This document shows, piece after piece, positions 5,870-64,000 of a stretch of 64,000 nt of DNA (its first letter is position 1; every line of letters starts with the position of its first letter). Under the pieces are notes generated by a model. That model was not told the origin of the DNA, searched no databases, and saw nothing but the letters and a program-made list of their open reading frames with translations. The position numbers were made by a program, and so were the translations under genes. Origin of the DNA: Verrucomicrobiota bacterium (GTDB lineage: Bacteria; Verrucomicrobiota; Verrucomicrobiia; Limisphaerales; PALSA-1396); assembly GCA_016200005.1 (NCBI GenBank), contig JACQFP010000048.1, positions 1 through 64,000 on the forward strand, given 5' to 3'.

Positions 5870-6568
5870 TCAATTCAACGGTGTGACTTTGAGCTGTCGA
5901 AACGCCACGGGGCCGTGGTCGCCTTGCAGATAAATCGGACCGGTGCGATGCTCGGGTGCGTTTCGGCTTACGTTGGTGCCGTGCGCAATTTCAACGTTTT
6001 CCTGCACGACCCGTCCATTGAGAGTCACCTTCACAAACCTGGCGTTGGCGGTTTTCTTTCCAGACTTGTCGAAACGCGGCGCGCGGAAATCAATGACGAG
6101 CTTCTGCCACTCACCGGGCTTCTTGCAAGCGTTCACCATGGGAGCGTTCTCGCTATACACGGCCCCGCAATCCTCCTTGTCCATGTTTGTTTTGCCGTAG
6201 CTGTCGAAGATTTGGATTTCGTAAATGTTCATCATCTTCACGCCGGAATTGGAATGCTTTGCCACCATGAACTCAACTTCCAACAGGCAATCGCCAAAAG
6301 TGGCTTCCGACGACAGGTTCACTCCTTTCTCGAGCGCGACGAGTTCGTCGCCGGGGCCGTCCACTTTCAATCTCGTCTCGTCGCCCGAATTCAGCGCTGC
6401 TTTGCCGTATTCCCATTGGACGGCTCCGCCGCCGACTGTCTTCCAACCGGACAGGTCCTTTCCATTGAAGAGAGAAATCGCTTGGGAGTTTTCGGCCACC
6501 ACGTTTTTCGAGGCAACTATTAAAAATACCAGAGCTGCGACGACACTGACCTGAGTGTGAAATTTCAT
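5870..6568 (-). CDS. Secreted DUF1080 (3-keto-disaccharide hydrolase) protein
   Basis: This 232-residue protein starts at MKFHTQVSVVAALVFLIVAS, a signal peptide cleaved near VVAE. The body is a single DUF1080 concanavalin-like domain, shown by SLFNGKDLSGWK, then GDCLLEVEFMV, the SGVKMM segment (DUF1080 proteins usually have NSGI) and GPIYLQGDHGPVAFRQLKV at the end. Members of this family bind or hydrolyse sugars, and some cleave 3-keto-disaccharides. The exact substrate here is unknown. The upstream in-frame ATG at 6646 would put 26 extra residues in front of the signal peptide, so 6568 is preferred. The gene follows the TIM-barrel gene at 6695-8563 on the same strand and may be co-transcribed. 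Confidence 0.85.
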   Translation of the reverse strand: MKFHTQVSVVAALVFLIVASKNVVAENSQAISLFNGKDLSGWKTVGGGAVQWEYGKAALNSGDETRLKVDGPGDELVALEKGVNLSSEATFGDCLLEVEFMVAKHSNSGVKMMNIYEIQIFDSYGKTNMDKEDCGAVYSENAPMVNACKKPGEWQKLVIDFRAPRFDKSGKKTANARFVKVTLNGRVVQENVEIAHGTNVSRNAPEHRTGPIYLQGDHGPVAFRQLKVTPLN

Positions 6569-6694
6569 TTTAATGAAAATGGCGGGACATGCCTCACGCG
6601 TCAACGCTGAAAACGCGAGCAGGCGCAACGCCTGGAACCCAGGCAAATGATGAGAATTAAAGGCTGAACTAGTTCTTTCAAGGTTTTGCCGAGT

Positions 6695-8563
6695 TCACCG
6701 TTCGATTACCACGACGGTAGCAATGTCCAAACGTGGGATGGTTGTTTCCACGACGGCTCCCGTTCCGTCGTGGCGCATCGTGAATGGCAACGCGCCAGTG
6801 GTTGCGCCCGCATCGGCTGTCAGGGCGCGCATAGATTTAACGCGAGCAAACGGGACGCGACAGGTCAAATGGGCATGCAGGGCCGGGGTGACTTTGTCTT
6901 CAAACGAAGAGAGCCGCTGCACGTTGAGGTTGAGCAGGTGAACGATGGTGCGCTTTCCCTGATCGCGGACGATCACGCGGAGGGTCGCGGGGCCGTGCAG
7001 CACGACGGAGGGTTGGCCGATAGCCTGTTGAAGCTCTTTGAGCCAATCCGCTTGATCAGCAGGGATGGCGCGCCCGCCCTGTCGCTGAAATTTTTGAATC
7101 ACCGCCTGTTCTTTGGAATTAAACACCGAAAGTTTTTCCACTGCGACAACCCGCACGCCTTTGAGTTCTGCGCTCGTGAAATTGGCTTCACTCAACACCT
7201 CATACTGCACGTTTGCGCGCGTGAGCGTGGCGGCCAGTTGAGATACCGCGCAGTTGTTGGTTTCCGTCCAACGCCGGAAAGGCAGGAATAACACCGCATC
7301 GCGACGGCCATGCGTGTCGTTCAAAAGTCGTTCTTGAGCGCGAAGTAAATCTGCCTGGGGATGGATGGCGGCGATCATGCGCGAGCGTTGGGTTTCCGGC
7401 CAAGTCGGCCAGGACAGGTAAAAAGCATTGTTCGCCGCCGCTTCAGCCATCGCCAACCGCACGAGATTAGGCGCCGTGGTGTAGTCCCCGGAGGCAAGCG
7501 TAGTCGCCACCACCGGCTTGCCATGGCTAACCGCATGAAGTTGTTTGTAGGTCGGGGTATATTCGATGGTCTGGCCGTTGGTGAGGATGCGCGGTTGCCC
7601 CGATTCCACGAACCCGACTTGGGCCGTCTGGCCGGTGGCGAGAACGCGCGGCTGACTGGTCATGTCTTCAATTACAACAAAATCCTCTACCTGGCTGAGG
7701 TCATAAATGTTGATGCCGGAACTGCGGCATTGTGAATAAAACGCGTCGGCAGAATTGAGGCTATTGTTGCAGGTGACAAGGGCGTGACGATTAATCGTGC
7801 GGGCGTAGGTCCGCATTTCCGACAGAAAATCACCGGCGATGGTGGCACGGAATCGCAGGAAGTCATTGGTTCGCTGCAACGCCAATTGCCGAAACGCTGC
7901 GGGCGAGTTCGTCGAAAGTTCCAGGTTGAGGTTCGAGAGTAAACCTTCACCCTGGAGAAAGCGGGCGAACTTTTCCATGCAGTGTGAACAATAGCAACCC
8001 TGCAAATGCACAATCGGATTGTCGAAAAATATTCCATCGAGGCCGATTCCCAATGACTGGCGCACCATGAACTTTTCATAGCTACGCCAGTCGGGATTGT
8101 TCATGCAGGCCGGCTGATAATCGCCGCCGTACCACGAAGGGAGGGGTTGGCCGTTGCGATCCTGCTGTCGCCATTGAGCCGCGGGGGTGTGGAATTGGGA
8201 ACGTAATTCGGGCGGCCAATTTTGATCGAACGTTTCCAGTTTAACGATCGACGTAGCGCACAGATAACCGAGCGCCAGGCGGATGCCGAGAGACTTGGCG
8301 TGACGCACATATGCCGCGCGGTTCTGGCGCCGCCGCGCGAACAGTTCAGGAGTTGGTAATCCGGAATAACCGTCACTGCCGAAACCGCCAACATAGAGGA
8401 TCGTGGCGCCAATGGCGGCAGCCGCCTCGGCCTGATCGCCCACGCCGGAACTATCGAACGCATGACCGGCCATGCCCACGCGCACTTCCGACGGCATTTC
8501 AGCCCAGGCCGGGAACGTCAACAGCAAAGCGCTGCCGACAGATAAGGAAAAGATTTTTCGCAT
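6695..8563 (-). CDS. Secreted TIM-barrel glycoside hydrolase-like protein
   Basis: This 622-residue protein has a signal peptide (MRKIFSLSVGSALLLTFPAWA). The N-terminal half looks like a TIM barrel related to GH42/GH-A-type hydrolases, with a conserved GLDGIFFDNP strand followed by a CYCSHC cysteine pair. The middle (about 400-530) resembles the glutamine-amidotransferase-like trimerisation domain of beta-galactosidases (GVRVVAVEKLSVF, FQRQGGRAI). The C-terminus is a small beta domain (IVHLLNLNVQ). The same fold order and CSHC motif occur in the gene at 18021-20048. It follows a pseudopilin gene on the same strand. The exact glycosidase family and substrate are not recognised. Confidence 0.7.
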   Translation of the reverse strand: MRKIFSLSVGSALLLTFPAWAEMPSEVRVGMAGHAFDSSGVGDQAEAAAAIGATILYVGGFGSDGYSGLPTPELFARRRQNRAAYVRHAKSLGIRLALGYLCATSIVKLETFDQNWPPELRSQFHTPAAQWRQQDRNGQPLPSWYGGDYQPACMNNPDWRSYEKFMVRQSLGIGLDGIFFDNPIVHLQGCYCSHCMEKFARFLQGEGLLSNLNLELSTNSPAAFRQLALQRTNDFLRFRATIAGDFLSEMRTYARTINRHALVTCNNSLNSADAFYSQCRSSGINIYDLSQVEDFVVIEDMTSQPRVLATGQTAQVGFVESGQPRILTNGQTIEYTPTYKQLHAVSHGKPVVATTLASGDYTTAPNLVRLAMAEAAANNAFYLSWPTWPETQRSRMIAAIHPQADLLRAQERLLNDTHGRRDAVLFLPFRRWTETNNCAVSQLAATLTRANVQYEVLSEANFTSAELKGVRVVAVEKLSVFNSKEQAVIQKFQRQGGRAIPADQADWLKELQQAIGQPSVVLHGPATLRVIVRDQGKRTIVHLLNLNVQRLSSFEDKVTPALHAHLTCRVPFARVKSMRALTADAGATTGALPFTMRHDGTGAVVETTIPRLDIATVVVIER

Positions 8564-8741
8564 GTTTTATCAGTTTTCAGGAGGCTTCACAACCGGAAGA
8601 CAGAAGGCGAAGTCTTCTCAGTTTTGAAACAACGACGCACCTTTTGTTACGAGTTTATAGGACACTCGCTGAAAACGAAGCTTTGGGCACAAGGCAGGCC
8701 GTGATCGCCTCCGCGACGGGTTACGGGAAGGCGTTGGTGGC

Positions 8742-9539
8742 TCAATCTTCAAGATACCAAAACGAGTGCACGACGTTCCACGACTTATCAACCTGCCAAA
8801 GCTTCTTGAAGGGCACGCGCTCGACATGCCCATCCAGCAGCGTGACATTGGCGCCGTTGTTGTGGACCGTGGGCCGGGCGTTATTGAAAGCGATATTGTC
8901 TTCACCACCGCCACCGCTGTCCGGCACCTTGTCGTGATCGGCATCGCGCGTAAAATGAAAGCCGGGATCCACGGGATCGTAAATGTAATGATCGAAGGCA
9001 TCCATGAACATCATGGCATCGTCGGGTTTCTTGATGCGGGAAGCTTTCAGCGGCTGAATGTCCGCGCCGCCGTAGTAGAAGGGCCCACTCAGCGGATTTC
9101 CAGGATTGCCCATGTTGGCGCCGATCCAACTATTCCAATTTCCCCACGCTGTGGAGAACGGCGGCGTTCCCCTGCTGCCACCGGGGCACTTGCGTAGTTC
9201 GTTGGTGTAGGCATCGGTCGTGTTGAACAGTTGTCCCGCCTGCACCTGTTTGGCCACGTAAGGCGCAAGTTTCTGAAACCAAAACGGCGTCTTAAAATCG
9301 TAAACGTCAGCCATGAACGGAATGTTGTCGTCGTAGTCGCCCAGATACATGACCGTCGCGACGCCCCATTGTTTCATGTTGGAAGCGCACTTGATCGCCT
9401 GGGCCTTGGCCTTGGCTTTCGCCAAGGCGGGCAACAATAATCCCGCCAGGATCGCGATGATCGCGATGACCACCAACAGCTCGATCAAGGTGAAGCCACT
9501 CGTTTTCGCGTAGGATGTTGACGCCGCAAGTTTGCTCAT
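8742..9539 (-). CDS. Pseudopilin-like H-X9-DG protein
   Basis: This 265-residue protein starts at [15 protein letters not shown] and has the type IV pilin/type II pseudopilin N-terminus [25 protein letters not shown]. It is processed at G|F by prepilin peptidase, with E5 of the mature chain present. The C-terminus carries the prepilin-associated H-X9-DG signature ([12 protein letters not shown]) and ends SFWYLED. These proteins form the soluble or tip part of a pseudopilus-like assembly in PVC bacteria, and individual roles are unknown. It is closely related to the pseudopilins at 12815, 51426 and 52344. It heads the cassette with the TIM-barrel gene downstream. Confidence 0.9.
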
Positions 9540-9592
9540 AAGAAGACCGGGTTTGTAACAATTCAAACGTACCAACTGCTTCCCGGATCCGT

Positions 9593-9650
9593 CTTGCTAA
9601 AAACGCCACAAAGCTGCCGTTTTTTCGCAAGCCTCACAGCATTGACGTTA
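9593..9650 (-). promoter_or_regulatory. Duplicated leader motif, copy I
   Basis: The sequence is nearly identical to 13689-13740, upstream of the other pseudopilin of this pair. On the minus strand it reads GCTGTGAGGC, then a core GAAAAAACGGCAG, then GGCGTTTTTAGCAAGACG. The core resembles GAAAAATGGTAGT of the nine shared elements, but the 21-bp upstream half-site is not recognisable. It may be a diverged version of the shared element. It lies about 75 bp before the start codon. Confidence 0.45.
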
Positions 9651-9745
9651 AACTGATAGTCGAAACGCGGAGTGTATTTGTTCATAGCTTCTCTGCCTTG
9701 CTTCACCAGCGCCTTCGGGAAAAGAGTCAAACATTCAGTATGTTC

Positions 9746-9799
9746 TCAGACTGATTTTTTCTGGAAACGCCGTTTTCTGTACTCGCTGGGAGAAACACT
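9746..9799 (-). pseudogene. 3'-end remnant of an AraC-family gene
   Basis: On the minus strand this stretch encodes VSPSEYRKRRFQKKSV and a stop. That is almost the exact C-terminus of the intact AraC gene at 13842-14774 (VSPSEYRKERLQKKSV). The following non-coding DNA down to the pseudopilin start is also about 85% identical to that behind the intact gene. Upstream the similarity stops, next to the 3' end of the lyase gene at 9824. This is a breakpoint scar from duplication of an AraC-end/leader/pseudopilin segment. Confidence 0.85.
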
Positions 9800-9823
9800 T
9801 AAGTAGTTGAATGATCGTCACGA

Positions 9824-12763
9824 TCAATTCTTCGACCGTTGCTCCTTGTACAGCCCATAATAGTACAGAATGTCCTGCATCTCCCAATAACGGATCAGGC
9901 TGAAGGCGCGGCCTTTGTGCCGTTCGTCCAGGATGCTCTCCTGCATCATCTGCCCACCCTTCTCCAGGAACGCCTTATCGCCCGTCAACTCATACCCCCA
10001 AAACAGGGGCATGATGTCCTGCATGGCGTAGCCGACCAGATAGACTTGCTGGAGTGGGTCGCCGTTCAGGATGAGCCCCGGTTCAGTGGGGGACATCCAG
10101 CTATACGCCATATTGTAGGCAATGTTCGCGCACGCGCGGCCGACGCGCTCATCGCCCGTGGCTCTCCAATAGTGCATGAGTCCCGCCGAAAGGATGGCGT
10201 TCATGCCGGGGATTCCACCGCGATACTGCCATGTGGCGGGCGTCTCGCTGAAAAAACTGCGGCGCGGCTTCAGGGTCTCAAGTGCAAACTCCGCCAGTCG
10301 CTTGCTGGCCTGCAAATACTTTTCATCGTATGTGTTCTCGTAGGCGATGGTCGAACTTCGCAAGGGCCAGCCGACACCCCTGCCCGAGCCCCCTCCCACA
10401 CCCATTTTCGTCGCGTGAAGCCAATCCGCGATGCCGATCGCCGCCTCCCGTGCATCCGGGTCGCCCGTCAGGTAGTGCAGGATGTACAGCCCCGCAAGTG
10501 GCGCATTGAGCGCGTAAGGTTCATAGCCCGTGTGATACGCCGCAATGCCATAGCTGGCTCCGATATACGCTGGATCCGAGTGGTAGTGGCAGATGTCGAT
10601 GTCCATGAAGTGCCGTTGATAGGCTTCGGCGTAGTCGAAGCAGGCGCGTCGCCCCGCCAGCAGGGCGAGGATGTAGGCGCCGTAGTCCCTCTCCTGGTAC
10701 ATATTCATCCAGGTGCCGCGGTACGCGTCGTAGATGGAGTCGGAGTAGCTATCTGGCCAATTGCGCAGCCCGTTGGGGACGGTACAGACGAGGGGTGGGG
10801 TATATCGCTCGACCATCCACTTGTGGAGTTCGGGAAATGTCTCGGGCGTCAACGCGGCTCCCCGACCAAAGGCCTGATGCTCGGCATACCATTGGGGGGA
10901 GATGAGAATAGGCGGCGACTCGAACGTTTGGAAGGTTGCCTGAATTTGCGGTTGATTGGCGGTGCCCTTGTGGAAGTAGAGGAGAAGTTCATGCCGTTTG
11001 GCTTCGCCTCGGGTCATGACATACTGCTCATACTCAACGGTGCGAGTAAAGAGATCAAAGACCACCTGCCCGCCTTCGCCTGCCGACATCCGCTTGGGAT
11101 ATTGCTGGGCGAAATGCCGGACCTGCCCGGAAATGCCGTGTGCCGGTGTCTGCAAGGTGATCGGGCCTTGCCAGTGCACGCCATTGGTTCTTTGAGCATC
11201 GTTGCCCTCGAAGATTTCGTAAGCGTCATGCCGACGCTGTCGGACGAGCAGTCTCCCCGTTTCCGCCGAGGCCGTTGCCAACTTTTGATCGCCCAGGGCC
11301 GCTTCGCCATCCACGAGTGGCGTTCGCAGACGCAACAGGAACTCCTCAACGAGTTGGGCAGGAACATCGACCTCGTTGAAGATGCGGAAGAATATTCGCA
11401 CGTAGGGCTTGCCTCGGTAGGCATGGATGCGGCAGGTGAAACGACCAAAGACCTTATTCCCATCCTTCAAACGTCCCGCACAGCGGATGGTTACGCGTTC
11501 AGGGCCAGCCGTCTCAACCGCGATTTCTTCGTTGACCGCGAGAAAACGGGTATGCACCCAGCCATCCCGCGCCACAACCTCACCGGTCATTTCTTTTCCC
11601 AGTGGTGCTTCCTCTCCGGCTAACGTGACGTTCTCTACCAACCGACGGGAGCCTTTATTTACCATGAAGCGCAGCCCTCCGGTGTCCACCGTGATGGCCC
11701 CCTCCGTTTGGTGGACTGTCAGTCCGGCTTCTGCCGGCGTGGGGGAGATCTGGGTGCCGTAAGTGATCGTGCAGGTTTGGTTGGCAGATTTTCCCGAGGC
11801 CAAAAAATCCAGGAGGAGCCAGTGGATGCTGCCATCGGGCCACTTGTGTTGCACCGTCGTTTGCAGGGGTACGGGATTGCCGATGAAATCAGTGAGCCTG
11901 ACGTGCTCTTTGTGAAAAAGCTCCCCCTGACCGAACGGGATGCCCCAAGTGACCGGATACCCGTCCTCCGGCAGACCGTTTGGGCAGTCGAGCGTGAGGT
12001 GACCTTCAGCCATCGTGACCGGTTCAGCGGCTTTCAAGCTGATTGGGTAGAGTTGAACGTCTCGCCGGGAAGGATTGCCCTCCCACGGCACAGGCGCCCC
12101 AGCGCTCAACGCGACATCTCCCCAAAAAACCCGCGTATAGAGCTTCTTCTCCGCATTCGGATCGCCGAGCCCTTCCCAACTCAAGACGCCCAGGTGAAAC
12201 TCGTCGCCCGGCAGTTTGGTCGCCGACCCAACCTTATCGAGTACCCGCAAGGTCAGCGTGAACGTCCCCCCGGGCGCAACGCGCTGGCTCACATCCGCGC
12301 TAAAATAACCAAAGTCTTCGGAATCGCCGATGTCTTGTTCCCAAACCACCCGGCCGTCAATCAACACTTGTTTGAAACGATGACCGACGAAGTTGTGGCA
12401 GGTGGCAAAGTTGAATGTCCACTTTGGGCTAACCTCCTTCCACCCCTCGGACACGTACGTGTCGTTGGCGTAGAGGCTTAAGAAGATCGGCCCCTGCCAG
12501 TCCGCCGGGACCGTGACCTTCGCGCTCAGAGACGCAAAATCTCCATCCTGCGAGATGTCCCAGGGATGATAGATCTGCCGGAGCGCCCGCGGGTGCTCGA
12601 CCAGCAGATATTTGCCCTTCGACGAGAAGGTCCATTTGACCTGGTCAAAGCCCAGACTCAAGACATTCTTGGGAGAATCTACTGCTCCTCCTTCATGCGC
12701 GAAGCAGAGTGTCAGCAAAAAAACTACTGATAGGAATTTGCTTTTTGACGCCGCGCAGTTCAT
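9824..12763 (-). CDS. Secreted PL26/YetA-like exo-rhamnogalacturonan lyase
   Basis: This 979-residue protein has a signal peptide ending near CFAHEGGA. Residues about 30-230 form an extra N-terminal beta region. From about 240 comes the PcRGLX/YetA-type RIFT barrel (DGYPVTWGIPFGQGELF, then VPLQTTVQHKWPDGSIHWLLLDF). A central beta-sandwich follows, then from about 640 an alpha/alpha toroid rich in W and Y (YDAYRGTWMNMYQERDYGAYILA). This order is that of PL26 exo-rhamnogalacturonan lyases and Bacillus YetA. It probably degrades rhamnogalacturonan I or a similar uronate polymer outside the cytoplasm. The family assignment is from motif recall. The gene follows a pseudopilin by 51 bp, so they are likely one transcript. 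Confidence 0.75.
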   Translation of the reverse strand: MNCAASKSKFLSVVFLLTLCFAHEGGAVDSPKNVLSLGFDQVKWTFSSKGKYLLVEHPRALRQIYHPWDISQDGDFASLSAKVTVPADWQGPIFLSLYANDTYVSEGWKEVSPKWTFNFATCHNFVGHRFKQVLIDGRVVWEQDIGDSEDFGYFSADVSQRVAPGGTFTLTLRVLDKVGSATKLPGDEFHLGVLSWEGLGDPNAEKKLYTRVFWGDVALSAGAPVPWEGNPSRRDVQLYPISLKAAEPVTMAEGHLTLDCPNGLPEDGYPVTWGIPFGQGELFHKEHVRLTDFIGNPVPLQTTVQHKWPDGSIHWLLLDFLASGKSANQTCTITYGTQISPTPAEAGLTVHQTEGAITVDTGGLRFMVNKGSRRLVENVTLAGEEAPLGKEMTGEVVARDGWVHTRFLAVNEEIAVETAGPERVTIRCAGRLKDGNKVFGRFTCRIHAYRGKPYVRIFFRIFNEVDVPAQLVEEFLLRLRTPLVDGEAALGDQKLATASAETGRLLVRQRRHDAYEIFEGNDAQRTNGVHWQGPITLQTPAHGISGQVRHFAQQYPKRMSAGEGGQVVFDLFTRTVEYEQYVMTRGEAKRHELLLYFHKGTANQPQIQATFQTFESPPILISPQWYAEHQAFGRGAALTPETFPELHKWMVERYTPPLVCTVPNGLRNWPDSYSDSIYDAYRGTWMNMYQERDYGAYILALLAGRRACFDYAEAYQRHFMDIDICHYHSDPAYIGASYGIAAYHTGYEPYALNAPLAGLYILHYLTGDPDAREAAIGIADWLHATKMGVGGGSGRGVGWPLRSSTIAYENTYDEKYLQASKRLAEFALETLKPRRSFFSETPATWQYRGGIPGMNAILSAGLMHYWRATGDERVGRACANIAYNMAYSWMSPTEPGLILNGDPLQQVYLVGYAMQDIMPLFWGYELTGDKAFLEKGGQMMQESILDERHKGRAFSLIRYWEMQDILYYYGLYKEQRSKN

Positions 12764-12814: not shown

Positions 12815-13630
<816 letters not shown>

Positions 13631-13688
13631 AAGGTGTGCCCGAGATTCAAATAAAAACTTTAATCTACCCACCTCTTCCAAGTTCCGT

Positions 13689-28160: not shown

Positions 28161-28967
28161 TCAGTATCTTCGGTCGAAGGAATACTCGGTTGCTATCGGG
28201 CCGTTTGTCGGATTGTATTTCAGCAAGGCCGCATGGCCGTCACCGAAAAGGGTGTTCCAACGGTAATCCCCGTGCCAGAGCAGCGTGGACTCGCCGTTTC
28301 TCGCCAAGTCAAGCGACCACCAACCGGCATCGAAGGCGCCCCAAGCAGTGAACGTAACGAAATGGGCGGGTTTGCTGATCTCACCAGCCTTGATGCTCTT
28401 GGTGTTGTCGGCATTGAGGCTGAAGATTGTCACGGTCCTACCCATATAGGTGCTGGGTTCGGCGGGGAAAAGATTTGCCCAGTAAGAAGCACCGATCATC
28501 TCAAAAGTGCAATGGCGCGTGTTTCCCGGAAAGATCTTGTCGCTGGGACAACGGGCTACTTCCACCGCCGCCTCGCGGTTTGCTTTGACCAGATACTCCG
28601 ACAACCAACGATCCGCTGCGCTGATCTGGTCGTAGTAAGGGAGCAATCCGGTCTGGCCCACCCAGCTTGTCTGCGTAGCCATGCCGTTTCTGGCAACGGT
28701 TGGTGGGTAACGATCGCTGTAATCCCCCAAGTAAAGAGCTGCCGCCATGCCGACCTGACGAATGTTGCTAAGACACTGGGTGGTCTGCGCCTTCTGCTTG
28801 GCCCTGGCCAGTGCGGGTAAAAGAAGGCCTGCGAGAATTGCGATGATAGCGATGACAACCAACAATTCGATCAACGTGAAGCCGCGCGCCAGCGCGTTTG
28901 TTGGGTCGTTCTCAGTCGGACCTGCCAACGACCAGCAAATGGGTTGGGCCTTGTTGGACACGTGCAT
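28161..28967 (-). CDS. Pseudopilin-like protein
   Basis: This 268-residue protein has [19 protein letters not shown] at about residue 29. The C-terminal signature is slightly altered: histidine and DG are separated by ten residues ([13 protein letters not shown]) rather than nine. It forms a different subgroup from the paralogues at 8742, 12815, 51426 and 52344. It lies 73 bp upstream of the SGNH-sialidase gene, with a shared bipartite element 42 bp before its start. Confidence 0.88.
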
Positions 28968-31015: not shown

Positions 31016-32134
31016 TCATTCAGCCACGCGAATCCGCAGCCAGCGGATGTTGTTGACGGAATCCTCGCAGCACCAGAAGACGGCAAACACTTCTCCTCCC
31101 GGAAGGAGAACCATATTGGGGAAACCGAATTTCAAGTTGCTGAGTTCTTCCGCGCCAGACGACTGGCCAGTCATCCCGGATCCCGCCCTCTGCCACAGCG
31201 GCAACTCCGCCAAGTTGATCCAGTTGTCGCCTTCGATGCGTGAAAGATTGGCCCAAAGACCGGGTTTATCGTCCCGGCGGTAGAGGCACAAAATTCTCCC
31301 ATCGCGCAGGCAAATGATCTTGGCCGTCTGCCCGCGCAGGCCGGTGAGGCGCGGCTGAGAAAAGGAACGGCCATCGGGGGAGAGAGCATAAGGCGTGGGT
31401 TGACTGCTTCCGCTGGGTTCGTGGAAGGCCCAGGCAACTGCCAGCAGCCGACCATCCGGCAGCCGCGTGATCGACTGCTCGAAATGGATGACGCAATCGC
31501 GATGCCCGTCCATTACGTCCATGTACTCGGGCCAGTTCTCGCCCCGGTTCCGTGACACAAGGGCAATCGCTTTCATCCCGTTGGGTGCCTCGCCGTTCCA
31601 ACCCTTCCATGTGCCCATCGGCGCCAGCCAGCATCCATCTGGCAATTCGAGGATGGGATGGCAGATTTCGAAACTCGGGCCGATCAGCGGTGGTTCAATC
31701 GTGCGGGGTCCCTCCCAACTTCGTCCCCCGTCGGAGCTTTGCAGCAGGATGAGATCGACAGGAACATAGCCTAAGTTCTCACGATTGGTCAGGCCCTCGT
31801 CGGGATGTTCGTCACGATAGAACCGTGCACCCAAACCTAGAAGAGTGCCATCCCTTGTCCGACTGATCCGCACCGTATGCGTTGTGGGCCGTTCGACCGG
31901 GTCAGTGAAAAGCGGGACCGGAGAACTCCAGGTCATGCCGTCATCGGCTGAACGGCTCACGTACGTCCGATAGTCGAGGCTCTCCACCGCCTCGCCCAGA
32001 TCGAACGCGCATACCATCGTTCCATCATCCAACCGTACCACCGACGGGTGCCAAGCGTGGATCGATCGCAGGTGCGGCTTGGGATTGCGGTATACCAGTC
32101 CAGTTGCGACGCAGGCAATCAAGTTTTCACGCAT
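31016..32134 (-). CDS. Exo-sialidase-like (BNR) protein, apparently cytoplasmic
   Basis: This 372-residue protein has a sialidase/BNR propeller fold with Asp boxes SADDGMTW, SSDGGRSW and SRNRGENW and an arginine-rich RSIHAWHPSVVRLDDG start. The start MRENLIACVATGLVYRN at 32134 has no signal peptide. The alternative at 32200 adds 22 residues but also no clear signal. It may act in the cytoplasm on an imported oligosaccharide, or be exported by another route. The symporter follows on the same strand. True sialic-acid specificity cannot be stated, because many verrucomicrobial BNR proteins act on other sugars. Confidence 0.8.
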   Translation of the reverse strand: MRENLIACVATGLVYRNPKPHLRSIHAWHPSVVRLDDGTMVCAFDLGEAVESLDYRTYVSRSADDGMTWSSPVPLFTDPVERPTTHTVRISRTRDGTLLGLGARFYRDEHPDEGLTNRENLGYVPVDLILLQSSDGGRSWEGPRTIEPPLIGPSFEICHPILELPDGCWLAPMGTWKGWNGEAPNGMKAIALVSRNRGENWPEYMDVMDGHRDCVIHFEQSITRLPDGRLLAVAWAFHEPSGSSQPTPYALSPDGRSFSQPRLTGLRGQTAKIICLRDGRILCLYRRDDKPGLWANLSRIEGDNWINLAELPLWQRAGSGMTGQSSGAEELSNLKFGFPNMVLLPGGEVFAVFWCCEDSVNNIRWLRIRVAE

Positions 32135-32280
32135 TGCAGATGGGAAGTGTGGACGCCGGGTATTCCCACCTGGCGAAGTGTTTGGAAGGATCGCAGCCAA
32201 GACAATTCTTCAAAGCGCGCTGTTTGTATTGAAATGCATTTTCTTGGCGCACTTTGTTTGTCATGGGACTAAACTCTACA

Positions 32281-32330
32281 GAAAATCAAAATCCAAACCA
32301 CCGATTTTACGCAAAAGAAGCGCGGTTTTT
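32281..32330 (-). promoter_or_regulatory. Shared bipartite element, copy D (diverged)
   Basis: On the minus strand the core is TAAAATCGGTGGT, with an AAAAACCGC half-site 21 bases upstream. It is the weakest of the nine copies but keeps the spacing. It lies before the sialidase gene at 32134. Confidence 0.5.
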
Positions 32331-32352
32331 GAAGGGGACAACGAGCGAATGA

Positions 32353-32706
32353 CTACCTCACCCGCGACCAAAGCCAGCGCGGATCTGGGCGGCCCATGCC
32401 CGGGTCAGGGTACTGGAAACCGAGAACGCTGACCTTGACTGCTTCTCCGTGCCCATCCACCCGCCCCGTGACACAACGGGTTCGCGACAAATGACGGTTA
32501 AAGGCACGAACCGGATCGCCGCCCCAAGCGGGATCGCTTGGGGCGCGGAACAGCACACCCGGAATTTGCGGAGTAACATCGGTCCACTGATCGGGGCTCT
32601 TGGCGTTGGGATTGCCGATCGCGGGCACGGTGGCAAGCCAAGGATAACGAAGCCTCTCCAGATTCCAGAAGTGGACGTGCGCGTCAATGATCGAGAGGTT
32701 TGTCAA
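32353..32706 (-). pseudogene. Chimera: lactonase N-terminus joined to pseudopilin C-terminus
   Basis: This ORF has 117 residues. The first 30 (MTNLSIIDAHVHFWNLERLR, then YPWLATVPAI) are the start of an amidohydrolase-2/L-fuconolactonase with the metal-binding HVH. From residue 31 the sequence [11 protein letters not shown], the H-X9-DG block (HLSRTRCVTGRVDG) and the end DPRWLWSRVR match the C-terminal third of the pseudopilins at 47323 and 61625. The joint is in frame near 32616. Most of the lactonase barrel and the whole pilin helix are missing, so neither activity is expected. It lies 3 bp behind the L-fuconate dehydratase gene, the expected place for a lactonase. A deletion is the simplest cause. 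An assembly error must be considered. Confidence 0.85.
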
Positions 32707-32709
32707 CGT

Positions 32710-33936
32710 TCAGCTCGGTTTGAGATCGCAACTGCTGCCCGGCTCCAGCGGTGTCTGGTAAATACCACCAGCGACACACGCAGGATGTACGAAATGTTCC
32801 CGCAAATGAGAGATGTGCTCAAGAAAAACCACTTCATGACCGAGCGCGACGTGGTTGAACAACACGAGGTGCTGATGAAGCTGCCCCATGTCGCCAGCGT
32901 GCGGCACGACGGGCACGCCGAATTTCCGGCACAGCAAACTCACCGCCAGGAACTCGCTCACCCCGGCCACCCGCACCGCGTCCACCTGGATGAAGCCGAC
33001 GCACTTCGCCTGCAAATAATTTTTGAAGACGACGCGATTGGGCACGTGCTCACCGAGTGCGAGCTTGGTTGGCCTGATCGCGTCGGCGAGCGTCTTGTGG
33101 CCAAGCACGTCGTCGGGATGGGTTGGTTCTTCAATCCAGAACGGATTGATCACCCGCAGTCGCTGGCAGATGTCGAGGGCCTGCGGCAGGGTCCATTGTT
33201 GATTGGCATCGAGCATGACGCGCGCGGAATCGCCCGCCGCTTCGCGAACCATATGGGCGCGTCGCAGGTCGCGTTCAGGATCGGGTGAACCGACCTTGAG
33301 CTTCATCGCGGTAAAACCCCCGGCGATGGCTCGCTTGCAATTCTCGCGCACTTGCTCGTCGGAGTAGTTGAACCAACCGACGGACGTATCATAGCCGGGA
33401 TAACCGCTCTGCAACACGCCATCGCGCTGCGGGCGCGTCGGCTGATGTTCGCGCAAGATGGCGAGCGCCGGCGCGGCGGTGAGTTCGTCTTCGAGATACG
33501 AGAGGTCGAGCGTGGCAATGATCTGTTCGGGCGAGAGGTTGAGGAGTAATTTCCACAACGGCACGCCGAGTTTCTTCGCCCATAAATCCCAGCAGGCATT
33601 GGTCACAGAGGAAAGCGCGAGTTGCACGATGCCTTTGTGTGGGCCGAGCCAGCGGAATTGCTGCTCGTCCGCCATCGCCCGCTGCCGCGTACCAAAGTCG
33701 CTCATAATTTGCTCGATGTCACAGCCGACAAGACGGCGGGAATAGAATTCCGCCGCGCGGCAGACAAGCTCGTTGCCTTCACCAAGGGTGAAGGCCAATC
33801 CCGTGCCGGTGTAGCCGGAGTCGTCGTGCAGAAGCGTGACCGCGTAGGAATAAACCGGGGCTTTGTGAATGGCATCGCTGCCGTGACTCGAGCCGATGGG
33901 ATAACGCGCGTCGCGAGTGGAAATGGATTTGATCAT
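32710..33936 (-). CDS. fucD: L-fuconate dehydratase (enolase superfamily)
   Basis: This 408-residue protein would convert L-fuconate to 2-keto-3-deoxy-L-fuconate. It matches the Xanthomonas-type L-fuconate dehydratase over its length. The catalytic and metal residues are in place: K212 and K214 (MKLKVG), D243 (LDANQQ), E269 (IEEP), E296 (LGEH) and H346 (PHAGDMGQLHQH). The N-terminal capping domain contains the family blocks GSDAIH and FRWLGPHKGI. The start ATG at 33936 overlaps the stop of the SDR gene (ATGA), so translation is coupled. It forms an operon with the symporter and SDR, beside a GntR regulator. Confidence 0.9.
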   Translation of the reverse strand: MIKSISTRDARYPIGSSHGSDAIHKAPVYSYAVTLLHDDSGYTGTGLAFTLGEGNELVCRAAEFYSRRLVGCDIEQIMSDFGTRQRAMADEQQFRWLGPHKGIVQLALSSVTNACWDLWAKKLGVPLWKLLLNLSPEQIIATLDLSYLEDELTAAPALAILREHQPTRPQRDGVLQSGYPGYDTSVGWFNYSDEQVRENCKRAIAGGFTAMKLKVGSPDPERDLRRAHMVREAAGDSARVMLDANQQWTLPQALDICQRLRVINPFWIEEPTHPDDVLGHKTLADAIRPTKLALGEHVPNRVVFKNYLQAKCVGFIQVDAVRVAGVSEFLAVSLLCRKFGVPVVPHAGDMGQLHQHLVLFNHVALGHEVVFLEHISHLREHFVHPACVAGGIYQTPLEPGSSCDLKPS

Positions 33937-34718
33937 GAATTCTCGATCGGACGACGGTAGCCGAGTTCCGCGCCACCGCTGACGTGCATGATATGGCCGG
34001 TTACGAAACGCGCTTTTTCGGAAAGTAAAAACACGCACGCGTCGGCGATGGCATCGCCCCCAGGGCAATAGCCGAGCGGATGAATCTCGTCGAGGTAACG
34101 TTCAATGGACGAGGGGTTAGGTTGCTCCTTACACCACTCGCGCAGCATCGGGGTCCAGGTGCCGGCAGGACAGACCGCGTTAACCCGAATACCGGATTTT
34201 GCATAGTCGAGCGCCATGGATTTGGTGAGCGCGTTCATACCACCCTTGGTAGCGGTGTAGGCGGCGTGGATTTCCTGGCCGATGACACCGACGAGACTCG
34301 ACGTATTGAGAATGCACCCCCGGCTCGCTTTCAGAGCCACGAACGCATGGCGCGTGGTGTGGAGTACGCTTTTCAAATTAATGTAAAAGAGTGCATCCCA
34401 TTCGGCGTCGGTGGTTTCGTGCAATGCCTTGGACGGTGCAGCGATGCCGGCGTTGTTATGCACCGCGTCCAACCGACCATAGTGCGCAAGCGTGGCAGCG
34501 ATGGCGGCTTCGACTTCGTTGTCACACGAGACGTCGCACGTCATGCCGAGGTGCTCCGGCCCGAGTTGGCGCGCGGCTTTTTGCACCGTTTCGCGCCCGC
34601 GCGCCACGATCGCCACCCGCGCGCCCTCAGCGGCATAGGCCTGGGCGCAGTCCCAGCCAATGCCCATTGAGCCGCCGGTGAGAAAGATGACTTTGTCCTT
34701 CAGCAGGGGAGTGGTCAT
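33933..34718 (-). CDS. SDR dehydrogenase of L-fucose catabolism
   Basis: This 261-residue classical short-chain dehydrogenase has the NAD(P) motif TGGSMGIG near residue 15, NNAG, the serine in TSSLVG and the YTATK catalytic tyrosine and lysine. In this operon it should be either L-fucose dehydrogenase (first step) or 2-keto-3-deoxy-L-fuconate dehydrogenase (after FucD). The sequence alone does not decide between them. It starts 12 bp after the symporter gene and overlaps fucD by four bases. Confidence 0.85.
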   Translation of the reverse strand: MTTPLLKDKVIFLTGGSMGIGWDCAQAYAAEGARVAIVARGRETVQKAARQLGPEHLGMTCDVSCDNEVEAAIAATLAHYGRLDAVHNNAGIAAPSKALHETTDAEWDALFYINLKSVLHTTRHAFVALKASRGCILNTSSLVGVIGQEIHAAYTATKGGMNALTKSMALDYAKSGIRVNAVCPAGTWTPMLREWCKEQPNPSSIERYLDEIHPLGYCPGGDAIADACVFLLSEKARFVTGHIMHVSGGAELGYRRPIENS

Positions 34719-34730
34719 GCGGAGGACCTT

Positions 34731-36425
34731 TTACCAGAAAATCAGATAAAGCACAACAAAGGTCGCCAGGACCACGCCCGTCAAAACACGATAGTTGCCG
34801 AGGCCGTGACCGTCGGCTTCGCCCCGCAAGGGCTCCCGCCAGGCTTCCCAAATCAATGGCTTGGCTTCCTCCTTGATCGGTTCGGGCAGCAACAGCGAGG
34901 TCGCGAACATCAACAGGATACAGGCGACGAGCAACCAGAACGCGATCAGCATGAAGTCCCCACGATAAATGCCGGTCCAGTCCAGGTAAAACATCACGGC
35001 GCCCAGCAGCATCCCTCCAACGAGCGTGAGGAAGGCGGATTTTCCGGACGCCTTCTTCCAAAATACGCCGAGCAGGAACACTGTGGTGATGGGCGGCGCG
35101 ACGTAAGAGATGAGTTTGTTGATGCCCTCGAAGATCGTCGTGTAGTGACCGAACAATGGAGAGCAAACGATGGCGAGGATTGTGCCGGCAATCGTCGTCA
35201 CCTTGCCGATGGACACCAGTTTGTGATCGCTGATGGCGGCGTTATGGCGTTTGAACAGGTCGTAGGCGACGAGCGTGGCGGTGGAATTGAGCGCGGCGGA
35301 GCAAGTTTGCATCGCGGCCGCCAGCATCGCAGCCGCAACGAGTCCTTTTAACCCGACCGGCAACAAATGTGTGAGGAGAAATGTGTAGGTGTCCGCCGCG
35401 ACGGCGGGGGACTCGCCAGCGAAGGCATTCTGTTGAACCAGCGCCACGCAGATGACGCCCGGCAGCACGAAGAAAAAAACCGGCAGGATTTTCAGGAACG
35501 CGCAAAACAACGGACCGACTCGCGCATGCCGTTCATCCTTGGCGGCCAGCACGCGTTGAACAATCGTCTGGTCGCAACACCAATACCAGATGCCGAGCAC
35601 CGGATAGCCCAACAAAATTGAATACCACGCGAGTCCGGAAGGATCGCCGGCGGAGCGGGCCATGTGGAGGAAGTTTCCTGTATGCCACGTGACTTGGCTG
35701 TCGGGGATCGAAGCGAGCGGATGAGGACTCGCCGACAAGGTCGATGCCAGCGCGTGCCAGCCTCCCACTTTGAGGTAGCCCACCACCGTGATCACCACCG
35801 CGCCGACGAGGAGCAAAACGGTTTGCACGCTTTCAGTCCAAACGACCGCGAGCAGACCGCCGAGCATCGTGTAAATCCCCGTGAGCACTCCAAGGACGAC
35901 TATGAAAAGCATGAGCGCGTCCATCCCGAAAATCATCGTGCCGGGCATCAGACCGAGAATGCCTCGGAGCACCCAGGCGGCAGTGTAAAGTGCCACGCCC
36001 ATGTGAATCACGATGGCTGAAAAAAGCGACACGATCGAAAGCATGTCGCGACACAAGCGGTTGAAACGCCGCTCCAGAAAATCCGGCAACGTTGCCACGC
36101 GGGACCGCAGGTAGAGTGGCGCGAAGAAAAGTGACAGCAGAATCAATGTGAAGCCGGCCATCCACTCGAAGTTGCCGAAGACAAGCCCGAACTTGTAAGC
36201 CGCCTCCGCCAGGCTGACAAGGTGGACGGTCGAGATGTTCGCTGCGAACATCGCCAATCCGATCACTGGCCAAGTCAGCGTGTTGCCGGCAAGGAAGTAA
36301 TGTCCGCCCTCGCCGCCGCGTTCCCCTTTGCGGCGCAGGAATCCCGCCACGACACCCAACCCCACTACCCCCAGTAGATAAATGGCGATGATGCTCCAGT
36401 CCAATAGACCCAATCTTGTCGGCAT
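34731..36425 (-). CDS. Sodium:solute symporter, probable L-fucose importer
   Basis: This 564-residue SSS/SGLT-type transporter has about 13-14 transmembrane segments, a FLAGNTLTWPVIGLAMFAANIST block and a GYPVLGIWYWCCDQTIVQRVLAAK block typical of the SGLT branch. The start at 36425 is favoured because AGGA lies seven bases before it, whereas the ATG at 36431 is too close. It is the first gene of the fucose operon, divergent from the GntR regulator. The L-fucose substrate is inferred from the operon. Confidence 0.88.
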   Translation of the reverse strand: MPTRLGLLDWSIIAIYLLGVVGLGVVAGFLRRKGERGGEGGHYFLAGNTLTWPVIGLAMFAANISTVHLVSLAEAAYKFGLVFGNFEWMAGFTLILLSLFFAPLYLRSRVATLPDFLERRFNRLCRDMLSIVSLFSAIVIHMGVALYTAAWVLRGILGLMPGTMIFGMDALMLFIVVLGVLTGIYTMLGGLLAVVWTESVQTVLLLVGAVVITVVGYLKVGGWHALASTLSASPHPLASIPDSQVTWHTGNFLHMARSAGDPSGLAWYSILLGYPVLGIWYWCCDQTIVQRVLAAKDERHARVGPLFCAFLKILPVFFFVLPGVICVALVQQNAFAGESPAVAADTYTFLLTHLLPVGLKGLVAAAMLAAAMQTCSAALNSTATLVAYDLFKRHNAAISDHKLVSIGKVTTIAGTILAIVCSPLFGHYTTIFEGINKLISYVAPPITTVFLLGVFWKKASGKSAFLTLVGGMLLGAVMFYLDWTGIYRGDFMLIAFWLLVACILLMFATSLLLPEPIKEEAKPLIWEAWREPLRGEADGHGLGNYRVLTGVVLATFVVLYLIFW

Positions 36426-36815
36426 GGTCATTTCCTATGATTTTTTTAAAAATTCGATGTCAGTAACAGACGGAGCGTCGGTGGCTTCAAGGATGTTGAA
36501 GTTGAACTTGCGTACTGTCACAGAGATCAGCGCGAAGACACTCAAGGCTGGCAAAAAGCAAGCCCCTTTCATCACGCTCCGAACTATCATGTGCCTGCTC
36601 GCGTTTGCATGGATCATCCAAGGCAGTTGGCAGGCTGCCGCGTCCGAAGGCTTGCAATATCCTTCGGACGATGAACATTGCACATCATGTGAAGCCGTAT
36701 GGGTAGCCAATTTAGCGGGCGGCCTGCACGCTTTACGGCGTTGACCGCTGCGAAGGCCTACGAACATCGTGTCGCACCTTGACACTCGGAGCGGCAATGC
36801 CAAAATCATCCGGCC
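36426..36815. other. Divergent promoter region, fucose operon and GntR gene
   Basis: About 390 bp separate the symporter and regulator starts. No TTGTnnnACAA operator is visible here. An 11-base palindrome, CACATCATGTG, lies near 36678-36690. An open frame across the region shows no family features and looks like chance. Confidence 0.45.
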
Positions 36816-47322: not shown

Positions 47323-48153
47323 TCAGTGAACTCGCGCCCACTTCCACCGCGGGTCAGGGGCAACCCCTGAAGAATAATACTGAAAACCCAGGGAGCTGAC
47401 TTTCACCGATTCCGCATGCCCATCCACCCACCCCGTGACACACCGCTTGTTGTGACGGTTGTTGGGCCGTTGCGGGTTTACCGTCCACCAGTCATCACTC
47501 GGGCAGCGGAAGAGACAACTCGTTCTCTGCGGATTCTCGTCTTTCCAGTCGTCGGGACTTTTGGCGTTTGGATTCACAATCTCGGAGGTGTCGGCCAGAG
47601 CCATTGTATCAGATGGTTTGGTGACCGAAGAAGCTTTCCAGAAGGTGGCAGGATCGACCCAGCCGGCTAATTCACCCAGACTCAAACCGATGCCAAACCC
47701 AGCACCTCTGTCTGCAGACGCTATGATGCTGGGACAGGTGAAAATGGCAGGGTTCGTCGAGGCCGAAGGCCCCATGTAGGACCGCACTAGATCAGGCCAG
47801 TCTGTCTTATCGGGTTCGTAGATTATGGCGGTCCCCTGCGGCAGGGCTCCGGCTACTGCCGCCGGCACCAGCGTATTATTATTATCTTCCGCATACATCA
47901 CATAACCAATGCCGATCTGCCGCATGTTACTCAGGCACTTGATGGCCTTGGCTTTTTCCTTCGCCTTGGCCAGCGCCGGCAACAGCAACCCGGCCAGGAT
48001 CGCGATGATGGCAATCACGACCAGCAGTTCAATCAAGGTAAAGCCGCGGGAGAAAACAGGACCATGGCGTGGCGGCACGGTGTTTGGCGGTGTGTCCACA
48101 AGAGGACAAATTACATCCAATCGAGATGGTTGCGATTTCCAAAACGTGTTCAT
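47323..48153 (-). CDS. Pseudopilin-like H-X9-DG protein
   Basis: This 276-residue protein has [25 protein letters not shown] at about residue 37, and the C-terminal H-X9-DG block [12 protein letters not shown] followed by [10 protein letters not shown]. It belongs to the same subgroup as the pseudopilin at 61625 and the chimera at 32353. It heads a unit with the sialidase-VCBS and aminotransferase genes. Confidence 0.9.
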
Positions 48154-61624: not shown

Positions 61625-62446
61625 TCATTTGAGGTCCCATTTCCAGCGCGGATCGGGGATGTCCAAGCTGCTCGAGCCTTGCATCCAGTACTGAAATCCA
61701 ATGGTGCTGACTTTGACGGCCTGCGCGTGACCATCGACCCAACCGGTAACGCAGCGTCCCAAGTGGCGGTTGATCGGGCGAACGGGTTCGGCCGACCAGG
61801 CATCTCCTTCATCGGGGGTGCGGAAGTTATACTGTCTGTCATGATGCGTGGGATCGGCCACCCAATCGTCCGGCGATTTTGCGTTTGGATTGCCAATGAG
61901 GCTGACGTCCGCCAGATCAAGGGTTTCTGAAGAGTGTGCGATGTCCGTACTCTTAATATAGCCCGATGGACTCCCCCAGCCGGCCACCAGCGCGCTCAAA
62001 CCAATGCCAAGACCCTGCTTGACTATTGGACAACTATAAAGGTCTGTCACCAGACCTCGATTTATGGCCGGTGCGTAAGGCCGGATTAAGTCCGGCCACC
62101 AGGTATTAGGATTGGCATCTTGACAAATGGAGTCCGGAGGAGCAGGCACGCCTCTTATTACATACGGCACCAGGATGTTATTGTTATCGTCGGCGTACAG
62201 AACGTAGCCAATACCGATTTGCTTCATGTTGCTCAGGCACTTTAGCGACATCGCTTTTTGTTTCGCCCTGGCCAGCGCCGGCAACAACAATCCCGCCAGG
62301 ATCGCGATGATCGCAATCACCACCAGCAGTTCGATCAGTGTAAATCCACAATGGCAACGGCGATGCCGCCCGACGTTTGGCGATGCACCCGCTGCGGCAT
62401 GAGTCAAACCGCACCGAGTAGCTTCAGGCTTGCTGTCTAATTGCAT
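61625..62446 (-). CDS. Pseudopilin-like H-X9-DG protein
   Basis: This 273-residue protein has [25 protein letters not shown] at about 34, and the C-terminal block [12 protein letters not shown] (H-X9-DG) followed by DPRWKWDLK. It contains [12 protein letters not shown], the stretch at which the chimera at 32353 is joined. It heads the largest enzyme unit of the window and has a shared element 43 bp upstream. Confidence 0.9.
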
Positions 62447-62730: not shown

Positions 62731-64000
62731 TTACCGGACACGAGTCTCCACCGACTCCAACTGCATCCCGGCCTGGTCGGTTTTGCCCGCCAAGGAGCAG
62801 AGCCGCAGGTAGCACACCCCCGGCGCGCGAGAAAGTTGCCGTGCTTCGCCCACACTTTTTCTGTCCAGGAAGATGCGGCACGCACCGGCCTTGCAGTCCC
62901 AGGCCAGCCGGAGCGTGTGCCACTTCTCCAACGACAGGCGCACTGCGGTCGGCTGAAACTGTCCGGCTGCCGTCGCTGTGGCCAAGGAGCCGTCCGGCTC
63001 GATGCGCACGCCAAACCGGCCGGGTTCGGCGCGGCCGGGAAGGGAGAAGAAGTCGGTCAGGCAGATGCCGCACCCCTCGAAACCCGGTTGCAGGCGCAGC
63101 TTGAGCGCAACGTCGCCCTTCGCGCCGAACGGAAAGTTGAGAGATGCGCCGGCGGGCTTGTCCGCGCTCGGCTTGCGCAGCGATAGAACCTGCGCCCCCG
63201 CGCGCTCGGGATGAGGGATCGTCGTGACGCCCTCCGTGCCGAGAGTGACCCAGTTGCTCAGCTTATCTCTGAACGTCTCGCTCAGTCTGTTCTCTTGCAG
63301 CCAGTCGGGGCGCACCCGCAACCAACGGCCTTTCCACTCGCTGTCGGCATAGCTGACCACGATGGCGCCGTCGGCCGCCTGCGTGAGGTAGGGATAGGTG
63401 ACCTGGCTGCCTCCGGGCGCAATGCGCGCGATCTCGCGATAGCCGCGCCAGGTTTTGCCATCATCACGGCTGATGGCCGCAGTCAGCACCTGGCGGTCGT
63501 AGTTGACGGCCGTCGGACCCATGCAGTTGTTCCAAGCGAGAACGATCCGCCCATCGCGCAGGCGAAGGAAGCCGCCGGGAGCGTTGGAAGATACGAACCG
63601 CGAGGGCACCGGCTCGGTCCAGGTATCGCCGTCATCGCGCGAGAAGGCTTCGTATTGGTGCCCTGCTTGCGTACGGATCAGCATCCATACCCGCCCGTCG
63701 CTCAACTCGATCACCACCGGCTCGCAGGCCCCCGACTCCAGCGCGCCGCCGCCGGTGTCCACCACGCACTCCCCACGCGACGGCCGCCAGGTTCTGCCGC
63801 CATCATCGGACAGCGACAGGTTGCTCACAAAGCGCCCGGTCTTGCGGTGCGAGTAGTAGCTAACCGGAAGTAGGATGCGCCCGCTTCTAAGCTGAATCAC
63901 GGAGTTCACCGCGCCGGTATACTGGTAGCCGAAGTCGCAGTGCTGCGGGGCCGACCAGGTCTTGCCGCCATCGGTGGACATCACGTGAAAGGCATAGGAC
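62731..64000 (-). CDS. Exo-sialidase-like protein with LamG-like C-terminus (partial)
   Basis: This is the C-terminal 422 residues of a gene whose start is beyond the window. Asp boxes STDGGKTW, SDDGGRTW, SRDDGDTW and SRDDGKTW define the BNR propeller. The end is a concanavalin/LamG-like domain (VALKLRLQPGFEGCGICLTDFF, WHTLRLAWDCKAGACRIFLDRKSVGEA). It shares its domain order with the gene at 57578. It lies upstream of the pseudopilin at 61625 on the same strand. Confidence 0.85.
   Translation of the reverse strand, partial: SYAFHVMSTDGGKTWSAPQHCDFGYQYTGAVNSVIQLRSGRILLPVSYYSHRKTGRFVSNLSLSDDGGRTWRPSRGECVVDTGGGALESGACEPVVIELSDGRVWMLIRTQAGHQYEAFSRDDGDTWTEPVPSRFVSSNAPGGFLRLRDGRIVLAWNNCMGPTAVNYDRQVLTAAISRDDGKTWRGYREIARIAPGGSQVTYPYLTQAADGAIVVSYADSEWKGRWLRVRPDWLQENRLSETFRDKLSNWVTLGTEGVTTIPHPERAGAQVLSLRKPSADKPAGASLNFPFGAKGDVALKLRLQPGFEGCGICLTDFFSLPGRAEPGRFGVRIEPDGSLATATAAGQFQPTAVRLSLEKWHTLRLAWDCKAGACRIFLDRKSVGEARQLSRAPGVCYLRLCSLAGKTDQAGMQLESVETRVR

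Follow-up and report, generated by a model that had tools for sequence, protein, structure and literature searches.

In the 64,000-nucleotide stretch of a Verrucomicrobiota genome analysed here (the window), a short frame on the minus strand begins as a fuconolactonase-type amidohydrolase gene and ends as a pseudopilin gene. This chimera is quite probably a deletion scar, left by a loss between two neighbouring minus-strand units. Below we describe its two parents, the gene order in related genomes, and the alternative explanations for its origin and fate.

Two parents in one frame

The chimeric frame comprises 117 residues, and both parts are read in the same frame. The stop codon of the preceding dehydratase gene lies 3 nt upstream of its first start codon, again in the same frame, so this TTG is the sole usual start ahead of the lactonase motif.

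32353..32706, minus strand: chimeric reading frame, 117 aa, TTG start (reading frame and homology of both parts)
32617..32706, minus strand: lactonase-derived start, residues 1–30 (DAHVHFW, YPWLATVPA), edge uncertain by 1–2 codons
32353..32616, minus strand: pseudopilin-derived end, residues 31–117 plus stop (homology to intact pseudopilins)

The sole NCBIfam match of the chimera is to L-fucono-1,5-lactonase, over residues 7–26 (E 0.009; 15.6 bits, with a cut-off of 400), and residues 6–30 are 72% identical to the start of a lactonase on a contig titled uncultured Verrucomicrobia subdivision 3 bacterium (locus L055). Like this amidohydrolase (NCBIfam NF052480, Pfam PF04909), residues 1–30 carry the N-terminal HxH motif (DAHVHFW, residues 8–14) and the stretch YPWLA, for which relatives show, for example, YPWLASVPAL. 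Unlike the enzyme, the chimera lacks about 255 of some 285 residues, including nearly the whole barrel, and retains about one tenth of it. Three full-length lactonases match the Pfam domain Amidohydro_2 over at least 272 aa; in the chimera the full-length domain is absent, and Pfam finds no family at all at E ≤ 1.

From residue 24 on, the chimera aligns at 58–61% identity with four intact pseudopilins encoded on its own contig (E values between 8.6e-28 and 4.8e-20), located at C48:47329 (61%), 61634 (60%), 64749 (58%) and 65659 (60%). Two of these lie within the window.

47323..48153, minus strand: intact pseudopilin, nearest paralogue of the chimera end (61% identity, E 8.6e-28; Pfam N_methyl)
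61625..62446, minus strand: intact pseudopilin paralogue (60% identity, E 3.3e-24; Pfam N_methyl)

Pseudopilin-like proteins combine an N-terminal methylation motif (PF07963) with an H-x9-DG end, known as the H-X9-DG motif. Residues 31–117 resemble them in the elements CVTG-VDGH, VKVS, GFQY and PDPRW-W. They differ in that the methylation or cleavage motif and the hydrophobic helix are absent, judged by sequence and Pfam. By pattern, the methylation motif is present in 30 of 30 aligned homologues and in 21 of 24 further ones; among the other three, one frame is still open at the edge of the examined stretch and two have stops upstream. The H-x9-DG motif is not found in the chimera either: the spacing from H to DG is 11, compared with 9 in all 54 homologues, owing to two extra residues that are unique among them.

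The sequence over the joint reads YPWLATVPAIGNPNAK. Its V-P-A codons resemble the lactonase and G-N-P-N-A-K is pseudopilin, which places the edge at about residues 29–31, directly before GNPNAKSPD. The pseudopilin alignment begins earlier, at residue 24, because L-A near residues 24–25 is common to both parents; the nucleotide breakpoint allows no finer placement without the true parents. Together, the open reading frame, the NCBIfam match and pseudopilin alignments far beyond chance confirm what the initial annotation had described as an in-frame chimera of a fuconolactonase start and a pseudopilin end. It had set the joint at GNPNAKSPD; the region holds, and the exact place moves to just upstream.

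Gene order in related genomes

The chimera follows a row of genes that appears to serve the breakdown of a deoxy-sugar. That this sugar is fucose we infer from family matches below curated cut-offs.

32710..33939, minus strand: enolase-superfamily sugar-acid dehydratase, directly upstream of the chimera (MR_MLE_C E 2.9e-52; 82% identical orthologue in genome G023)
33933..34718, minus strand: SDR dehydrogenase, same gene row (Pfam and NCBIfam family matches, row of relatives)
34731..36431, minus strand: sodium:solute symporter, same gene row (family match)

A search for dehydratase orthologues in 320 genomes of the order at E 1e-150 gave 27 matches, our own included. Nine of the 26 others are at least 76% identical, and for eight of these nine we examined the DNA downstream, up to 1.5 kb. 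In six of the eight (G023, G035, G227, G219, G218 and G131) a lactonase begins on the same strand no more than about 25 nt from where the dehydratase ends, the one in G219 being cut by the contig end; the chimera occupies the same position. The remaining two (G247, G220) have no lactonase within 1.5 kb of the dehydratase, which is followed there by a gene of opposite orientation. No lactonase occurs in the downstream DNA examined at the 17 more distant loci (57–61% identity) either. The usual row in relatives consists of symporter, in some cases mutarotase, SDR, dehydratase and lactonase, of which the window retains symporter, SDR and dehydratase. This comparison of sequences supports the view that an ancestral lactonase stood directly behind the dehydratase and was lost.

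Several relatives carry the mutarotase gene between those for symporter and SDR, or, in the case of G035, after the lactonase; the corresponding place in the window, 34718–34731, has none. A search of the own genome gave no mutarotase match at E 1e-3; having been run without a control, it is of little weight. A scan of 31900–33000 returned two promoter-like and no terminator-like sites, and we do not use it as evidence.

Other lactonases in the genome

When searched with the G023 lactonase, the own genome gives only two loci, C32:5653-6471 (38%) and C47:7032-7865 (35%). Each homologue is a full-length Amidohydro_2 protein; their frames span 284 and 285 aa, respectively. The match on C47 contains one TAA and extends a few codons beyond the start of the open reading frame (C47:6999-7856); we take the TAA to sit just upstream of the start codon, where the sequence does show a stop. 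On C32, the surroundings of the lactonase include an RbsD/FucU family gene (Pfam E 1.6e-26) and oxidoreductases, which makes a second deoxy-sugar gene set likely. A check for another lactonase gene elsewhere in the genome has thus turned out positive, and the initial claim that the operon has no functional lactonase where one is expected stands with an addition: two other full-length homologues exist, one of them near a FucU-like gene, so the cell need not lack the lactonase step.

The same search shows no remnant of the missing lactonase, hence no reciprocal product that an inversion or translocation would have left, and we reject such an event.

A further lactonase fragment exists on contig C47 (C47:2000-18000, here L080). 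At 10187–10246, L080 repeats 60 nt from the start of the intact lactonase (L080:5000-5857) at 95%, and at 10025–10105 it repeats 81 nt from the end of a GH2-type gene (L080:11125-14163) at 96%. Both copies adjoin an HNH gene (8961–9938) and a DNA methylase gene (6266–8959), as if this pair lay within a duplicated, partly deleted stretch. We do not regard this fragment as a sign of a mechanism common to both sites: edges and neighbours differ, and two cases are too few for a pattern.

Pseudopilin gene pairs

Downstream of the chimera, at a distance of 152 nt, lies the likely partner of the broken pseudopilin.

31016..32200, minus strand: BNR (sialidase-like) gene (BNR_2 E 7.9e-12)

Such pairs recur in the window. 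In a list of eight intact pseudopilins, hand-picked from the window's genes, five are followed by a large gene on the same strand, within 200 nt or overlapping; of the other three, one stands ahead of another pseudopilin, and the remaining two have gaps of 1.2 and 1.7 kb behind them. This gene order fits a broken pseudopilin–BNR pair. The pseudopilins directly ahead of large genes are at 8742–9575, 12815–13681, 28161–28967, 47323–48153 and 61625–62446, all on the minus strand, and several of their partners look hydrolase-like by eye. The BNR gene itself has no match at E 1e-40 in 57 other genomes.

Another BNR gene spans 62731–64000 of the window and continues to C48:64488 (L082:732-2489; BNR_2 E 9e-39). 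Its start (STLIARLVVLAIITILAAMLLPALA) resembles a degenerate pilin N-terminus by eye, with no match to Pfam N_methyl at E 0.1; it is perhaps a reverse kind of fusion.

Origin of the fusion

How might two such genes have met? Before the event, the deoxy-sugar operon (symporter, SDR, dehydratase, lactonase) would have stood in a row with a pseudopilin–BNR hydrolase pair on the minus strand. A deletion starting near codon 30 of the lactonase and ending near codon 184 of the pseudopilin would then have cost the lactonase about 765 nt and the pseudopilin about 550 nt, with the spacer lost as well; estimated from relatives and paralogues, the loss comes to at least about 1.3 kb. The two stumps would have met in frame by chance. 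A single deletion and the prior adjacency of both units are what we infer here. Deletion-fusion pseudogenes are a known class in bacteria; as in these, same-strand neighbours appear joined in frame through loss of the intervening DNA, and the chimera differs in nothing special besides its pair of parents. The initial annotation had also suggested a deletion scar, a reading well supported by the parents, their order and strand, and the ancestral lactonase position, all of which fit. It is probably not repeat-driven: the present 32150–32800 region contains no direct or inverted repeat of at least 12 nt, and the joint is not crossed by any long repeat.

The gene order that the deletion would have acted on has never been seen, since none of the 26 relative loci carries a pseudopilin behind the dehydratase operon in DNA examined up to 1.5 kb downstream. 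A comparison for relatives in which an intact lactonase is followed by a pseudopilin at this locus accordingly found 0 of 26, an absence that does not exclude the arrangement. This result would also suit a replacement, in which a pseudopilin–BNR segment entered the lactonase gene by recombination and took the place of the sequence behind it; this contig carries many similar pseudopilins, and the BNR gene is lineage-specific among the genomes searched. Such a replacement needs more steps than a deletion and finds no repeat in 32150–32800, and we consider it unlikely. About as improbable is a wrong join in the assembly, of distant pieces of one genome or of two genomes. The genome consists of 87 contigs with an estimated contamination of 2.07%, and the joint appears in no independent assembly searched; yet it is in frame and on one strand, sits at about 32 kb in a contig of 92.6 kb and contains no N. 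When a 121-nt stretch over the joint is compared with the rest of the genome, no match exceeds 54 nt (76% identity, lactonase part, C47), and the longest exact match among those listed is 17 nt. With no long repeat across the joint, a repeat-caused misjoin is unlikely.

The joint occurs in no other genome among 320 of the order and 58 relatives (each set including our own) or at 18 loci of a contig scan, and we therefore reject a conserved fusion. Among the literature titles listed, none dealt with this fusion, which does not show that it is unpublished.

Fate of the fused frame

Returning to the deletion scar, neither parent function is plausible for it, since it retains little of the amidohydrolase barrel and no pilin N-terminus. 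Decay by substitution is not seen in the pseudopilin part, nor is a stop or frameshift; the chimera breaks one of 20 columns conserved at 95%, in its lactonase-derived part, compared with none in 40, one in 11 and two in three of the 54 homologues. It has three unique insert columns, where 45 of the 54 have none. The lack of decay means that the event is young or the frame has been maintained; we regard it as probably young.

Could the fusion have given birth to a functional small protein, as the initial annotation offered as a second option? Its starting point would be an uninterrupted run of 117 codons immediately after the dehydratase stop, in which the conserved columns of the pseudopilin end are retained. 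We nevertheless hold this to be highly improbable, and nothing positive speaks for it: the frame begins with TTG, has no pilin N-terminus and no orthologue in the 320 genomes of the order, the 58 relatives or the 18 contig-scan loci, and departs from all 54 homologues in its H-to-DG spacing. It also has no confident fold, with a mean AlphaFold2 pLDDT of 37.3; as an intact pseudopilin reaches 49.9 and its end is likewise below 50, these models are too poor for use and say little either way. It is very unlikely, too, that the translated frame gives the freed pseudopilin end, cytoplasmic and led by a lactonase start, a new role of its own, as a gene just coming into being. The operon can have this frame translated as its final cistron, but the product is probably without function, neither lactonase nor pseudopilin.

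Implications

Taken together, the chimera is real but ordinary: an evolutionary accident, probably recent, with no evidence of function. Its wider importance is small. It presents a clean case of gene loss via in-frame fusion in a bacterium rich in pseudopilin–hydrolase gene pairs, and it is a warning for annotation, as such a frame may get called either parent. For the organism, it implies that the lactonase step of the operon would be spontaneous, supplied by a paralogue, or lost.
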